Below are positions 15,567 to 20,178 of a stretch of DNA of 32,858 nucleotides, one piece after another. Each line of letters starts with the position of its first letter. Within the stretch, counting starts at the first letter, position 1. Under the pieces are notes generated by a model that was not told where the DNA came from, ran no database searches, and worked only from the letters and a program-made list of their open reading frames with translations. The stretch spans positions 1 to 32,858 of the forward strand of contig JASHTL010000064.1 in NCBI GenBank assembly GCA_030040595.1, written 5' to 3'. Both the position numbers and the translations under genes were made by a program. This DNA is from Microcaldota archaeon (GTDB lineage: Archaea; Micrarchaeota; Micrarchaeia; Micrarchaeales; CABMGC01).

Positions 15567-15578
15567 TTGGACTCGGCG
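15567..15578. repeat. 12-base copy of the tRNA-Ala 3' end (site A)
   Basis: TTGGACTCGGCG is identical to 19103-19114, which covers the last bases of the tRNA-Ala gene (reading as CGCCGAGTCCAA on the minus strand). Same orientation as the tRNA copy. It also lies just upstream of the TATA element of the peptidase gene. Confidence 0.6.
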
Positions 15579-15595
15579 CCTCTGTAGCGCTTCTT

Positions 15596-16090
15596 CTAGG
15601 TTCTAAATGCTGCCTTCACGTGATCTATGGCTTCCTCCGGGGTGCTTGCACTTTGTATTTCCCGGAAAGACTGGCTAAGCTGCCTGAAGAAAGCTATACT
15701 CTCCGAGCTATTCCCCAACAGTATGACGGGCTTTCCCTCTTTTATGCCCAGGGCCGCTTCGCTGGCAGTGCCCGGATTCATGCCTACTACCACCAACGCG
15801 TCGCTGGTAAGCACATTGATGCAGTTTCTCGCCTGCTCCATGTTTGTTACGATTGGTATGTCCAAATGTTGAGACCAGTCTGAAGTGTTGCTGTTTGGAA
15901 GTATGCCTACGGTAAGGCCTCCCTCCTCATGCGCACCTCTCATCGCAGCCCCCATGACGCCGGCTTCCCTTCCCCCACTCAGGGTCACCCATCCGTTCCT
16001 TGCTATCAGCCTGCCGACCGCGTATGCATTATCGGTGTGCGGTTGAGTAGCATCTCCTGGTCCCATTACTCCAACTATGCGCTGCCTCAC
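15596..16090 (-). CDS. SLOG/LOG-like Rossmann protein (TIGR00725 type)
   Basis: The 164-residue single-domain protein shows the LOG-like Rossmann pattern: G-V-M-G-P-G-D near the N terminus, S-G-G-R-E-A-G-V-M-G-A-A at about 38-49, G-I-L-P, and the C-terminal G-T-A-S-E-A-A-L-G-I-K-E-G-K-P-V. Members of this superfamily bind nucleotides. Some cleave the N-glycosidic bond of nucleoside monophosphates, others act as sensors in conflict systems. The start is a GTG at 16090, with a minus-strand TATA-like CTTTAAATAT at 16121-16130. It is divergent from the Fic gene. Its base use looks like the host, unlike the Fic gene. Confidence 0.85.
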   Translation of the reverse strand: MRQRIVGVMGPGDATQPHTDNAYAVGRLIARNGWVTLSGGREAGVMGAAMRGAHEEGGLTVGILPNSNTSDWSQHLDIPIVTNMEQARNCINVLTSDALVVVGMNPGTASEAALGIKEGKPVILLGNSSESIAFFRQLSQSFREIQSASTPEEAIDHVKAAFRT

Positions 16091-16163
16091 ACAATCCCCG
16101 GGAATTTAATGATTATCCTGATATTTAAAGCAGCCGTTTCGGGCTTGCACTCGGATCACCACT

Positions 16164-16283
16164 TTACCCTTACATTTCATTATAAATTCAATATTTATAC
16201 AAATATGTGAGGGTAATAATGTTATTCGCTATTACCCTTACTTTAAATTAGAAAAGTAACTATTTATATATTTGTAAGGGTAA
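16164..16283. promoter_or_regulatory. Duplicated promoter with four GTRAGGGTAA operator-like sites
   Basis: Four 10-base sites alternate in orientation: TTACCCTTAC at 16164-16173, GTGAGGGTAA at 16207-16216, TTACCCTTAC at 16232-16241 and GTAAGGGTAA at 16274-16283. They form two inverted pairs with 33- and 32-base interiors, and each interior contains an ATTTATA TATA element (16193-16199 and 16262-16268). The second TATA serves the fic start at 16293, and its right-hand site lies between TATA and start, a classical repressor position. The period of the duplication is 68 bases. Confidence 0.6.
16219..16251 (+). CDS. Possible 10-codon leader peptide before fic
   Basis: ATG at 16219 opens a 10-codon frame, MLFAITLTLN, ending at TAG 16249-16251. 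It begins about 26 bases after the first TATA element, exactly where a leaderless start would fall. It may be fortuitous, since the second operator-like site forms part of its coding sequence. Confidence 0.2.
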   Translation: MLFAITLTLN

Positions 16284-16292
16284 GTACCAGAT

Positions 16293-17189
16293 ATGGTTGT
16301 TATAAAGAAAAAGCAGATAGGCGACAAAACCTACTATTATCTTGGACATACGTATCGCCAACAAGGCAAAGTAAGGTACAAAGAGACATACCTAGGAAAT
16401 AAGGTACCTGCTGACATCGAAAATGTAAAGAAAGGATTCCTACAGCAACTATACAAGGAAAAATGGTTTGGCCTGTTTGAAAAGATAAAATTGGAATATG
16501 CTAAAGATCTCAAGAAAACACCGCCAGAAGTGTTAGAAAAGAATCTAGAAGCATTTATGATATCATTTACGTATAACACCAACAGAATAGAAGGCTCAAA
16601 ATTATCCCTCAAAGACACTGCATTGCTGTTGGAACATGGAATAACCCCTAAAGGCAGGCCCATTGGGGATGTAAAGGAAACTGAAGCACATAGAAAAGTA
16701 TTCTATGAGATGTTGGAATATGAAGGAGACTTATCCATAGGGATACTGCTCAAATGGCATAGAGAGTTATTTGGCGAGACAAAACCCGAAATAGCGGGTA
16801 AGATAAGAGATTACCAAGTCTATATTACTGGAACCAGATATAAACCCCCAAGCGCAATTGAGGTTCAGGCATACATCCTAGAGTTCTTCAGATGGTACAA
16901 CAGGGAAAAGAGTGCATTGAACCCTGTCGAACTTGCGGCTCTTATCCATGTAAAGTTTGAGGCAATTCACCCATTTGGTGATGGTAACGGCAGAATTGGA
17001 AGACTAATCATGAACTTCGTATTGCATAAGAACGATTACCCGATGTTAAACATACCATATACAAATAGGCTAGGTTATTATAACGCACTTGAAAAAGCGC
17101 AGATAAAAAAAACAGATTCAATCTTTGTCTTGTGGTTCTTCAGAAGGTACCTAAAAGAATGCGGCACGTATCTGCCAAGAAGTAAGTAA
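16293..17189 (+). CDS. Fic family protein (AMPylase-type) with inhibitory motif
   Basis: The 298-residue protein carries the Fic core H226-P-F-G-D-G-N-G-R234-I-G-R. The His acts in transferring AMP (or another phosphate-containing group) to a target hydroxyl. Upstream, T96-N-R-I-E100-G101 fits the (S/T)xxxE(G/N) inhibitory helix that keeps Fic proteins inactive until released. This copy is N-terminal to the core (class II-like). Residues 1-45 form a short basic beta-rich segment of unknown role. The start is leaderless from the TATA at 16262-16268. The gene is clearly AT-rich compared with flanking host genes. Its target cannot be read from sequence. No separate antitoxin is needed if the inhibitory helix works. 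Confidence 0.92.
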   Translation: MVVIKKKQIGDKTYYYLGHTYRQQGKVRYKETYLGNKVPADIENVKKGFLQQLYKEKWFGLFEKIKLEYAKDLKKTPPEVLEKNLEAFMISFTYNTNRIEGSKLSLKDTALLLEHGITPKGRPIGDVKETEAHRKVFYEMLEYEGDLSIGILLKWHRELFGETKPEIAGKIRDYQVYITGTRYKPPSAIEVQAYILEFFRWYNREKSALNPVELAALIHVKFEAIHPFGDGNGRIGRLIMNFVLHKNDYPMLNIPYTNRLGYYNALEKAQIKKTDSIFVLWFFRRYLKECGTYLPRSK

Positions 17190-17219
17190 ACTATTTCGCA
17201 CCAAGTTAAATGGACGTAG

Positions 17220-17230
17220 TGGACTCGGCG
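17220..17230. repeat. 11-base copy of the tRNA-Ala 3' end (site B)
   Basis: TGGACTCGGCG is identical to 19104-19114, in the same orientation, and lies between the fic and vapC genes. Flanking bases differ from the tRNA copy. Confidence 0.6.
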
Positions 17231-17300
17231 AAACCAGCAAATGAGTATGATGTAAGAACAACATTAGATAATGGTGTTTAATAGTACTTGATAGTATTCA

Positions 17301-17687
17301 CTAGCATTCTATTGTCTTGACTCCGGCTTTTCTAGCAAGGTTTGCCTGATTATTGTCGCAGGTCACTAATTCGTAAGCATTCTTTAGTGCTGCAGCTACA
17401 AACATAGCATCATATATCGACGAATTGTATTTCCTAGCAATTTCAAAGGCCTTACTCGTATGTTTTCTTTCCTCTATAAACCTAAAGGTATCAGGGTACC
17501 TCTCGAGAATCTCGACTGCCTTCTTATATTCAAGCTCATTCTTACGGACTTTTTTCAGAAGTGCGCTGCCTAGCTCTATCATGGAAAGTTCTATGCTTAT
17601 TGGTTCGTAGAGATACTTTTCAACCTCTTCCCATCCTGGCTCTTCTGAAAAGTACTTGACAATAACGGAGCTATCAATAAGCCTCAT
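17301..17687 (-). CDS. vapC: VapC-type PIN domain ribonuclease toxin
   Basis: The 128-residue PIN domain begins M-R-L-I-D5-S-S-V, with the acidic metal-binding residues at Asp5, Glu38, Asp93 (S-I-Y-D-A-M-F) and Asp111 (V-T-C-D-N-N). Such toxins cut RNA, in known cases tRNA or rRNA. The start at 17687 overlaps the end of the vapB gene by 14 bases, so the two are translated together, as expected for toxin and antitoxin. It is AT-rich and lies within the tRNA-bounded segment. Length and fold are normal, so it is probably functional. Confidence 0.92.
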   Translation of the reverse strand: MRLIDSSVIVKYFSEEPGWEEVEKYLYEPISIELSMIELGSALLKKVRKNELEYKKAVEILERYPDTFRFIEERKHTSKAFEIARKYNSSIYDAMFVAAALKNAYELVTCDNNQANLARKAGVKTIEC

Positions 17688-17892
17688 TTCTATCCTCCCT
17701 TATTGATTTCACCGCGAATCCGGCTTTAGATGGTTTTGAGGTTTTAATAATTTCTTTCAATTCGAGTAAGACTTTTTTGGCATTTGCCTTCCATGCAATA
17801 TCCTCTATGTATTCTTTTGGGTTTATGCCAGCCCTTTTGAGCTGTTCTGCAGTGCCACGCCTTACTCTAATACTGATTACTTCGGTGTCCAT
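17674..17892 (-). CDS. vapB: VapB-type antitoxin
   Basis: The 72-residue protein begins with a short beta strand, T-E-V-I-S-I-R-V, followed by R-R-G-T-A-E-Q-L-K-R-A-G and N-P-K-E-Y-I-E-D. This resembles a short ribbon-helix-helix DNA-binding domain, and a C-terminal tail likely wraps the toxin. It would neutralise VapC and repress its own promoter. The ATG at 17892 is placed by a minus-strand TATA at 17911-17920, giving a leaderless transcript. A palindrome lies between TATA and start. Confidence 0.85.
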   Translation of the reverse strand: MDTEVISIRVRRGTAEQLKRAGINPKEYIEDIAWKANAKKVLLELKEIIKTSKPSKAGFAVKSIREDRNEAY

Positions 17893-17897
17893 GATTA

Positions 17898-17909
17898 TAT
17901 GTCAGCATA
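17898..17909. promoter_or_regulatory. Palindrome between the vapB TATA and start, candidate operator
   Basis: TATG-TCAG-CATA is an inverted repeat with 4-base arms lying between the minus-strand TATA (17911-17920, AGATATATAA on the plus strand) and the vapB ATG. A second inverted repeat, AAACA-TTTC-TGTTT, lies on the other side of the TATA at about 17919-17932. Position suits autorepression. Confidence 0.4.
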
Positions 17910-18042
17910 CAGATATATAAACATTTCTGTTTACTTAGTCGATTACACAAATACCAGATGGGCTCGGTTATGGAAGATCTTCAAGTAATGGTTGTACTTT
18001 CACAATCGATAACTGGACATTCTATATATTTTTTGCAGGTGC

Positions 18043-18954
18043 TTACCTTTGCATATACGTGTCCACTTCAGAACGAACAGGTAAAGAAGAAGACGCTCCT
18101 AAACGCTGGACACTTAGTGCCGCAGCTTTATTGGCAAAGCTGAGTGCATCATTCAACGATTTTTGTTCTGACAATGCAACTGCAAAAGCCCCAGCAAAGC
18201 AATCACCTGCAGCAGTAGTATCAATTGCATTTACTTTAATCCCTTCCACTCTGACTTCTCCATGCTGATTAATACAGAGCGCACCTTTTGCACCCAAAGT
18301 AACAATTATTGTCTGGTCTTTCCTAGCTTTTACTTTATTTGCATAGTTTTTAATGGTCTCTATGTCCTCAGTAACTGTTTTGTTTGCAAAGAAGGCAACC
18401 TCATGCTCATTTACTATTAAATAATCTGCAAGGATAAGGAGCTCTTTAGAGCATTTCGCAGCTGGTGCTGGGTTAAGTATCGTCTTAGCGCCTGCGATCT
18501 TGGCTCTTTTGAAGAGTGATAGTATTGTTTCTTGTGGTATCTCGAATTGTGATAAGAGAATGTCAGAGCTGCCCAGCTTTATTGAAGATACATCATCAGC
18601 AGATACTTTGGCATTGCTTCCAAGGACTACCACTATTGAGTTTTGCGAATCTTTATCAACACATATAATAGCCGTGCCAGTTGGTGTGCCCTTTGTAAAT
18701 CTTATCCCATCGACCTTCATCTTTTCCTTTTTCAAGACTTCATATATTGACCTTCCAAAATCATCTTCTCCCACCCTGCCTATGAATTCTACGTTACCAT
18801 TAAGTCTGCTTGCCGCAATTGCCTGGTTAGAACCCTTACCACCAAGTATAAAATGAAGACTATCCCCCAGTACTGTTTCACCCGGTTTTGGCATTTTATC
18901 TGTTCTAGTGACAACATCCATGTTAATGCTGCCAACAACGACTATCTTCCCCAT
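18043..18954 (-). CDS. rbsK: Ribokinase (PfkB family sugar kinase)
   Basis: The 303-residue protein has the PfkB signatures in order: G-S-I-N-M-D at 8-13, G-G-K-G-S-N-Q-A at 38-45 (sugar binding), N-P-A-P-A near 161-165, and D245-T-T-A-A-G-D251, with the catalytic base Asp251. The DTTAAGD form is common in ribokinases, which turn ribose into ribose-5-phosphate. The substrate of archaeal PfkB proteins can also be a nucleoside, so ribose is likely but not certain. The gene is AT-rich. It lies alone between VapBC and the tRNA, within the probable integrated segment. No ribose transporter lies nearby. Confidence 0.9.
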   Translation of the reverse strand: MGKIVVVGSINMDVVTRTDKMPKPGETVLGDSLHFILGGKGSNQAIAASRLNGNVEFIGRVGEDDFGRSIYEVLKKEKMKVDGIRFTKGTPTGTAIICVDKDSQNSIVVVLGSNAKVSADDVSSIKLGSSDILLSQFEIPQETILSLFKRAKIAGAKTILNPAPAAKCSKELLILADYLIVNEHEVAFFANKTVTEDIETIKNYANKVKARKDQTIIVTLGAKGALCINQHGEVRVEGIKVNAIDTTAAGDCFAGAFAVALSEQKSLNDALSFANKAAALSVQRLGASSSLPVRSEVDTYMQR

Positions 18955-19103
18955 TTATTTGCCTCGATACCTTACTTATGATTGTTAATAATTAAGATAC
19001 TATCTTACTCTGGACAGATCGACGCAGGATTCCCATACCATGTATCATAAGCTTTATATCATTTTCAGGGGTCCACTGCGCCAGTCCACAAAGGAAACGT
19101 AAT

Positions 19104-19177
19104 TGGACTCGGCGGGATTCGAACCCGCGACCTCGCCGTTGCGAACGGCGCGCAAACTACCGCTGTGCTACGAGCCC
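19104..19177 (-). tRNA. tRNA-Ala (anticodon CGC)
   Basis: The minus strand folds as a standard cloverleaf. The acceptor GGGCTCG pairs with CGAGTCC and contains G3-U70, the alanine identity pair. The anticodon stem CGCCG/CGGCG holds loop TTCGCAA with anticodon CGC. The T arm is GCGGG-TTCGAAT-CCCGC. The discriminator is A73, and CCA is not encoded, so the CCA-adding enzyme at 20644 would complete it. No intron is seen. The end of the LAGLIDADG gene overlaps its first ten bases, and its 3' end is copied at sites A and B. Confidence 0.95.
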
Positions 19178-20178
19178 TTTGGTAATAGTCTACCTGTCTT
19201 TATCCATTGGCCATACCTTTCTTTTATCAAAGGATGCGATGTACCTATATTGTACATCCATCTTCTTATATTCCTATTACCACGCAAAACTACGTCTCCC
19301 GAGTCTCGTTTATTTTGCCAATGAACATATGCTGGGAAATCTAAATTGTTTAGTAATTCTCCCATATCATAAAGGAACGACTTACTCCCACTAGATATTT
19401 TAAGTTCTAGATATTTGTAATCCTCGTCTTTTCTCGCGTATAGACAACCATCTGTATCAAGCAAACCACGCAACACTGACGCTTTAACATCTATTGGACT
19501 ATTGAATATCTGCTCTGTTATTCTCAATTTATTCTTCTTTTCACCTATGGGCATACCTAATGAATTAAAATAATCGAATATTAGTCTACTTTTTATCGGA
19601 ATGCCTATTACGTGTTCACTTGATCGTTTATAATAGTAACCCGATAAATTAAACCTCCTCTGTAAAATTGGTATTACATAATCTAGATAATAATGTAAAT
19701 CGTCGGTCATATTCCCAGTAAATAAGGTCTGATAGCACCAACGGTTTTCGTATGTAGAGAAAAATTTTGACAAGCATCCATCTCCCATGCAAATGCCTAC
19801 CAACTCCCATATTTGCGGATCCACCTGCGGTAAGTCCACTGTATGTCTAAAACTTCTAACGAATGCCATTCTTGAGTTTATCTGATTTTTATATTTCCTA
19901 TAAGATTCTAGACCTCCGAGGCGGTTTCCCCAATTGGAAGGATAGGTTTCTATGCCCTTTGAAACTTTTCTTTTAATATCTGGCGAAGATATGTCCAGAA
20001 GTTCATTAAAAACCTCTTCAGGTATAAGTCTAGTACCAGAACACCAATTCTTAACTGCAGAATAACCGTACCCTAATTTTTTACTTAGGTCTATTATAGA
20101 AATTTGATTATCTTGCAGAATATTGTCAAATAAGAGTGCTCGTGATTCATCATTAAGTCTTATTCTATCCCCACCCAT
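19168..20178 (-). CDS. LAGLIDADG homing endonuclease-like protein with N-terminal HTH
   Basis: The 336-residue protein contains two dodecapeptide motifs, E-L-V-G-I-C-M-G-D-G-C at 125-135 and V-L-R-G-L-L-D-T-D-G-C at 235-245, each with the acidic residue needed for metal-dependent DNA cleavage. Residues 10-55 look like a helix-turn-helix (I-D-L-S-K-K-L-G-Y-G-Y-S-A-V-K-N-W). It is free-standing, not within an intron or intein. A minus-strand TATA at about 20205-20217 precedes the ATG at 20178. It is AT-rich, a sign of transfer. Its TAG stop is formed by tRNA positions 8-10, so it ends inside the tRNA-Ala gene. The protein looks intact. Confidence 0.85.
   Translation of the reverse strand: MGGDRIRLNDESRALLFDNILQDNQISIIDLSKKLGYGYSAVKNWCSGTRLIPEEVFNELLDISSPDIKRKVSKGIETYPSNWGNRLGGLESYRKYKNQINSRMAFVRSFRHTVDLPQVDPQIWELVGICMGDGCLSKFFSTYENRWCYQTLFTGNMTDDLHYYLDYVIPILQRRFNLSGYYYKRSSEHVIGIPIKSRLIFDYFNSLGMPIGEKKNKLRITEQIFNSPIDVKASVLRGLLDTDGCLYARKDEDYKYLELKISSGSKSFLYDMGELLNNLDFPAYVHWQNKRDSGDVVLRGNRNIRRWMYNIGTSHPLIKERYGQWIKTGRLLPKGS

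Follow-up and report, generated by a model that had tools for sequence, protein, structure and literature searches.

We analyzed a 32,858-nt stretch of contig JASHTL010000064.1 from the Microcaldota archaeon assembly GCA_030040595.1 (the window), in which several genes follow one another on the 3′ side of tRNA-Ala(CGC), whose gene is intact. Moving outward from the tRNA, these are a ribokinase gene, the toxin–antitoxin pair vapBC, a fic gene and a SLOG gene, with Peptidase A4 and AlkZ-like genes farther out and a LAGLIDADG gene on the 5′ side of the tRNA. The host genome (948,909 bases in 120 contigs, 83% complete) was compared with 78 relatives, giving a set of 79 whole genomes of the family (Micrarchaeota), all of which are metagenome assemblies or drafts. 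An earlier note on this DNA had divided the locus into two units, vapBC with ribokinase and SLOG with fic, of ∼1.9 and 1.65 kb. That division did not hold up, and the locus reads instead as an array of smaller cassettes behind tRNA-Ala.

The 12-mer TTGGACTCGGCG occurs on the + strand of the window at 15567–15578 and 19103–19114, 11 of its 12 bases recur at 17219–17230 (the matching 11-mer being 17220–17230), and no further copy with zero or one mismatch was found in the window. The exact 12-mer has just these two sites in the whole genome, both at the tRNA-Ala locus. Its 11-mer, TGGACTCGGCG, has three copies in the window against 0.01 expected, a number reached in none of 100 shuffles, and one copy elsewhere in the genome (C100:12761), where there is no tRNA. 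The three 11-mers share register. The repeats thus lie where the earlier note had placed them, in one orientation, and its concern that an 11–12-mer might be common across the genome does not apply here. A fourth core copy, diverged (TGGGCTCGGTT), lies at 17959–17969, a boundary that exact matching overlooks.

At 19104 the repeat forms the 3′ terminus of the tRNA-Ala(CGC) gene itself, which sits beside the gene for the CCA-adding enzyme. Since this pairing is kept across the order, the site itself is ancestral, and it is the DNA past the tRNA 3′-end that varies. GC content is 51–53% outside the array, 37–40% in the fic, vapBC and ribokinase segments and 53% in the SLOG segment, in agreement with the earlier caution that the SLOG gene is host-like in composition. 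The shift to foreign composition therefore falls at ∼16140 and not at 15567. Low-GC foreign DNA is also found on the 5′ side of the tRNA, in the LAGLIDADG gene (35%).

Cores, arms and shared cassettes

A search for the 11-mer in the 79 genomes gave 108 places, about half of them tRNA genes and the remainder scattered single copies and clusters, the scattered copies matching the prediction from a reversed-pattern control. Extra cores at most 10 kb from a tRNA core numbered 14 downstream in the same orientation, none upstream and one in the opposite orientation, with core spacings of 0.56 to 8.8 kb. Relatives thus have this core at the same tRNA, with all 14 same-orientation copies on the 3′ side, which supports the earlier proposal of insertion at the tRNA-Ala 3′-end, the 11-mer being the shared core. 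Arrays are present at different tRNA-Ala genes (CGC, TGC and GGC) with different cores, and some cores have diverged.

The sequences flanking the cores, here called arms, fall into recurring types. To the left of the core there are two large families, type A (...GTTTGTACATCATACTCAATTGCTGACGTC and then the core) and type B (...GGATGGGACTGCA...GCTGCAAGGA and then the core), and a smaller type D. To the right there are types a, b, c and d, and the same types follow intact tRNAs and bare cores, as expected if every unit has its own two ends. Arms within one type have a mean column identity of 69–75%; type A recurs at 20 other places, type B at 12 and type D at 2. In the window, type a follows the tRNA, type D precedes the core at 17959–17969, type A precedes the 17220 core and type d follows it. 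Profiles built without the window (from two other genomes for type D) matched both left arms (Table 1). When the type A model was run against the 79 whole genomes, 21 of its 22 strong matches were its seeds and one was new, an array unit behind tRNA-Ala(TGC) at G048:C32; as the seeds were first found via the core, this search tests for absence elsewhere and is not a fully independent count. The whole-genome search found no second type A arm in the host.

The vapBC cassette recurs core-to-core in genomes G066, G061 and G060 with 84–86% DNA identity. In the resulting four-genome, three-genus alignment, homology begins directly after the core or tRNA end and ends at the next core, so that the element-specific sequence starts and stops at the repeats. 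The neighbours of the cassette differ: in the window it comes after ribokinase, in G066 and G061 it occupies the second place in the array, and in G060 it directly adjoins a tRNA-Ala-like 3′-end, with a fic cassette next in line. VapC is 93% identical in G060, versus 46–50% for the CCA enzyme between these genera, and this high identity, together with the exact core-to-core limits, indicates recent transfer of a precise unit. In G013 and G047, fic stands by itself between cores that are 1.09 and 1.10 kb apart, respectively. Found in other units are PIN toxin pairs, an unnamed pair of 89 + 121 amino acids (aa), a radical-SAM protein, RibD_C, a low-molecular-weight phosphatase, glyoxalase-like and OmdA proteins. 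Cargo tracks arm type, with fic, vapBC and PIN pairs on type A and the 89 + 121 aa pair and radical-SAM genes on type B.

These results redraw both of the units first proposed. The vapBC–ribokinase unit is divided by the diverged core at 17959–17969, where arm sequence and a homology boundary both separate the two cassettes. The SLOG–fic unit stands in part: it has a recognizable arm at its 17220 end, and its fic portion has the size and composition of a cassette, but the SLOG portion and the 15568 border are uncertain. The fic gene is probably a third cassette, well delimited at 17220 and plausibly ending near 16146–16156. Cassettes in the host array are ∼0.7–1.1 kb long.

Table 1. Features of the tRNA-Ala(CGC) locus, in window coordinates
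Feature	Position	Strand	Evidence
Intact tRNA-Ala(CGC), receiving site	19104–19177	-	ARAGORN; Rfam tRNA, 58 bits
Core copy 1 (CGCCGAGTCCA), tRNA 3′-end	19104–19114	-	Exact repeat
Left-end arm type a of ribokinase cassette (ATTACGTTTCCTTTGTGGACTGGCGCAGTGGACC)	19064–19103	-	Clusters with post-core sequence of 7 other loci, with or without intact tRNA
Cassette 1, ribokinase (PfkB) gene 18043–18954, 40% GC	17970–19103	-	Pfam/NCBIfam; borders from arms and cores
Right-end arm type D of cassette 1 with diverged core (CCGAGCCCA, 17959–17969)	17959–18039	-	Hold-out profile, E 1.8e-11; blastn 79% to L021
Cassette 2, vapB (17674–17892) and vapC PIN toxin (17301–17687), 38% GC	17231–17958	-	Core-to-core DNA homology with G066, G061, G060
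Right-end arm type A of cassette 2 with core copy 2 (17220–17230)	17220–17302	-	Hold-out profile from 20 other arms, E 7.5e-16
Left-end arm type d of next cassette (CTACGTCCATTTAAC...)	17180–17219	-	14 of 15 first bases equal post-core arm at L059:9077
Probable cassette 3, fic (16293–17189), 37% GC; far border inferred	16157–17219	+	Pfam Fic; fic alone between cores in G013, G047; composition step at ∼16140
Possible decayed core (TGCACTCGGAT, 3 mismatches), weak candidate	16146–16156	-	Sequence at composition step; chance alone would give a match with 3 mismatches in the span
SLOG (LDcluster4/TIGR00725) gene 15596–16090, 53% GC; possible fourth unit or resident DNA	15579–16145	-	No recognizable arm beside 15568
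Core copy 3 (exact 12-mer), outermost candidate border beside Peptidase A4 promoter	15567–15578	-	Exact repeat
LAGLIDADG gene at tRNA 5′-end, 35% GC; separate insertion on other side	19168–20178	-	Pfam LAGLIDADG_3; homologues at same tRNA in L056, L108, L112

Integrases and probable movement of the cassettes

Tyrosine integrases at tRNA-Ala, which the earlier note had suggested looking for, were found in at least 10 relatives, immediately 3′ of the tRNA-Ala core. They form two families, family I of 394–406 aa, in which the two members scanned have a zinc-ribbon-like tail, and family II of 280–336 aa, 64–90% identical across genera. One complete integrase element (G070:C9, 14901–23707) shares its b/A arms with the fic cassettes found in G013 and G047; another (G005:C2, 19131–23716) shares its a/B arms with small cassettes of G020 and G091. 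Since integrase elements with the same arms occupy the same tRNA, the integrase-less cassettes probably moved in trans, judging from these matching sites. A viral vector was considered and rejected: the family I integrase, VapC and the arm patterns had no real relative in IMG/VR, where the lone arm-pattern match lay in unrelated DNA.

We consider it likely that small cassettes without an integrase have been inserted serially at this locus, forming an array behind the tRNA-Ala(CGC) 3′-end. A cassette would be a short DNA, mostly with one gene or one toxin–antitoxin pair, having its own left and right arms around an 11-bp core that matches the tRNA gene end. A tyrosine integrase would recombine core with core and thereby regenerate the tRNA, so that a new cassette adjoins the tRNA and older cassettes are shifted outward, each with a core copy at its outer edge. 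The integrase would come from larger elements, inserting and excising the cassettes in trans as circles, and the arrays may still be active. At the sequence level this mechanism has its core copies, its matching arms, its core-to-core cassettes in varied orders and its integrase elements with the same arms. The wider reading, that Micrarchaeota possess an integron-like system in which integrases of larger elements, acting in trans, capture minimal one-operon cassettes with typed arms (toxin–antitoxin pairs, Fic, small enzymes) at a tRNA-Ala platform, stack them and shuffle them between species, seems to us evenly balanced.

Thirteen contig ends fall at most 250 bp from a core, against 2.7 expected, and two contigs of G018 (C6 and C48; L026 and L115) have in common the last 51 nt of tRNA-Ala and then continue into different downstream sequences. 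Both observations are compatible with mixed populations carrying different junctions, but they may instead reflect assembly artefacts or a second tRNA copy.

Several points weigh against serial insertion of cassettes in trans. As the earlier note had remarked for the locus, no integrase was found: the host genome, at 83% completeness, has no PF00589 match. No arm is recognizable beside the 15568 core, and the host-like SLOG segment leaves the outer part of the locus unexplained by the cassette model. The fic gene of the window has the opposite direction to its counterpart in the classic cassettes, and its sub-family (60–64% relatives) is absent from type A cassettes elsewhere. Contigs in draft and metagenome assemblies may break for other causes, and arms could recombine by homology, which would shuffle cassettes as well. 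Finally, the comparison with related genomes called for in the earlier note yielded the vapBC cassette core-to-core in four genomes but no precise empty site for the host genome, the flanking genes being patchy in its genus, and no circular junction was seen for this genome either.

The rival that fares best, which we nevertheless hold to be improbable, is that the units are remnants of larger elements with integrases, which entered one after another at the tRNA and later shed most of their genes, so that short dead stretches are left between attachment (att) sites. Such remnants would fit the integrase elements at the same tRNA in relatives, the divergence of some cores and a host genome without integrase. 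However, the units have intact genes, both arms and narrow sizes, and the vapBC, fic, PIN-pair and 89 + 121 aa units recur intact across genera and array positions; the same minimal units in different genera are not expected from independent decay. Between the two options that the earlier note had left standing, movement in trans or remnants, the integrase elements with the same arms in relatives make the former the leading one.

Somewhat less probable still is an exchange of cassettes between arrays mainly by homologous recombination through shared arms and cores, with no site-specific step. Arms of the same type are alike and stand beside every core, which would suit such an exchange, but it leaves unexplained why the core is the tRNA end, why the copies have a single orientation, and why arrays occur at the CGC, TGC and GGC tRNA-Ala genes with different cores. 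Chance repeats by unrelated genes are very unlikely: the 15568 copy, with no arm, a host-like flank and a promoter beside it, could be read in this way, but so few copies are expected and the 12-mer is so confined to this locus that the set as a whole could hardly be, and at 17220 and 17959 the arms rule chance out.

The least probable rival is a true integron array of the IntI/attC kind, which would fit the single-gene, toxin–antitoxin-rich cassettes that are prominent in archaeal integrons (PMC9668308), but not a core that is a tRNA end in arrays at tRNA genes, the absence of an integrase from the host genome, or arms of type A without a consensus fold. By eye, single arms seemed to have hairpins with compensating changes, but RNAalifold found no consensus over 21 type A arms, and attC-like folding was rejected; type B arms have only a near-invariant inverted core repeat. 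An Rfam scan gave no match besides tRNA. For IntI, no tyrosine recombinase was found in the host genome, the IntI-specific patch not having been searched for in relatives. As for the integron layout of promoterless cassettes in one direction, the single-gene cassettes here stand in tandem, their genes point either way, and an operator-like palindrome belongs to fic itself. On the tests done, the array is not an integron.

Neighbouring genes and other settings of fic

At the outer end, SLOG and the exact 15568 core may form an older unit with ends of another kind, or the 12-mer may be there by luck; no SLOG homologue was found beside a recognizable array. The Peptidase A4 and AlkZ-like genes past the array are present in three and two, respectively, of 10 genomes of the genus. 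Both genomes with AlkZ, the host and one other, have it just 3′ of tRNA-Ala, so the variable region may extend to ∼13,260 and the AlkZ-like gene may be old cargo.

On the other side of the tRNA, the 3′-end of the LAGLIDADG_3 gene overlaps the first tRNA-Ala bases, and its homologues at L056, L108 and L112 are 46–53% identical; a homing-type gene has repeatedly been placed exactly at the tRNA-Ala 5′ border. A ribokinase gene of the same genus, 67% identical (L129, 761–1818), lies ∼60 bp 3′ of tRNA-Tyr, with no tRNA-end repeat after the gene.

Upstream of fic there is a palindrome (TACCCCTACATTT...TGTAGGGGTA) that is kept across many archaeal groups (e.g. window 16160–16290, L181–L197), is doubled in the sub-family of the window fic and looks like an operator. 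We rejected the idea that fic is generally linked to tRNA genes, as its nearest homologues in other archaeal groups have the palindrome and generally no adjacent tRNA. In G004, G005 and G016, fic lies between duplicated parts of tRNA-Asp, with a repeat that differs from the tRNA-Ala core and is longer, which indicates that fic travels on more than one kind of element; at L139 (7805–8984), L141 (192–1318) and L145 (3225–4389) it stands, in three genomes, between tRNA-Asp and a second, near-complete tRNA-Asp copy of ∼62 nt or more, an integration system with longer repeats that brings this cargo to another tRNA. Other settings were also seen. At L131 (∼380–710 and 1600–1720) fic is flanked by ∼37-nt copies resembling a clustered regularly interspaced short palindromic repeat (CRISPR; GTTTCCGCAAGAGAAATCCCTATCAACTGACGGCAAC), at L136 (∼970–2300) it lies at the 3′-end of a coding sequence of which ∼80 bp are duplicated on both sides, and at L137 (1–3105) several GGGG/CCCC hairpin repeats (CAACCCCACCGCAAACGGTTGGGG-like) lie just upstream.

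Comparison with known systems

Tandem tRNA integrations and short att sites are already known in archaea (PMC6563490; review PMC8371274), and the repeats of tRNA-targeted elements in Thaumarchaeota go down to 8 bp, with a median of 17 bp (PMC6563490). In the open-access literature we found no report of tRNA cassette arrays or integrative elements in Micrarchaeota, and the archaeal recombinase review is silent on DPANN. Gene gain by tiny DPANN archaea is largely unexplained, and a tRNA platform stacking one-operon cassettes would, if true, explain exchange between genera and represent a second, independent route to integron-type gene capture. The arms and cores can also serve to find hidden cassettes in other genomes, and they give a defined pair of integrase and site for in vitro tests.

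The array resembles archaeal integrated mobile genetic elements with tyrosine integrases in its insertion at a tRNA 3′-end, the regenerated tRNA, the short direct repeats, the tandem insertions and the integrases at the same site in relatives. Unlike those elements, most units here measure 0.7–2 kb and lack an integrase, their cargo being one or two genes; they have common arm families and recur as interchangeable modules in varied orders. Tycheposons and tRNA-site islands likewise integrate at tRNA 3′-ends with varied cargo and tRNA-end copies at their borders; they are larger and usually have their own recombinase. With integron arrays the likeness lies in single-gene cassettes, many toxin–antitoxin pairs, a site at the outer cassette end and arrays without their own integrase. 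In contrast to integrons, here a tRNA gene receives the cassettes, the site consists of a core from the tRNA tail and linear arms in which no attC-like fold was found, genes run in either direction, and the integrases of relatives are of the ordinary phage type. From its sequence, the array would best be described as a non-autonomous variant of tRNA-targeted integrative elements, in which integrase-less cassettes are arranged in arrays.

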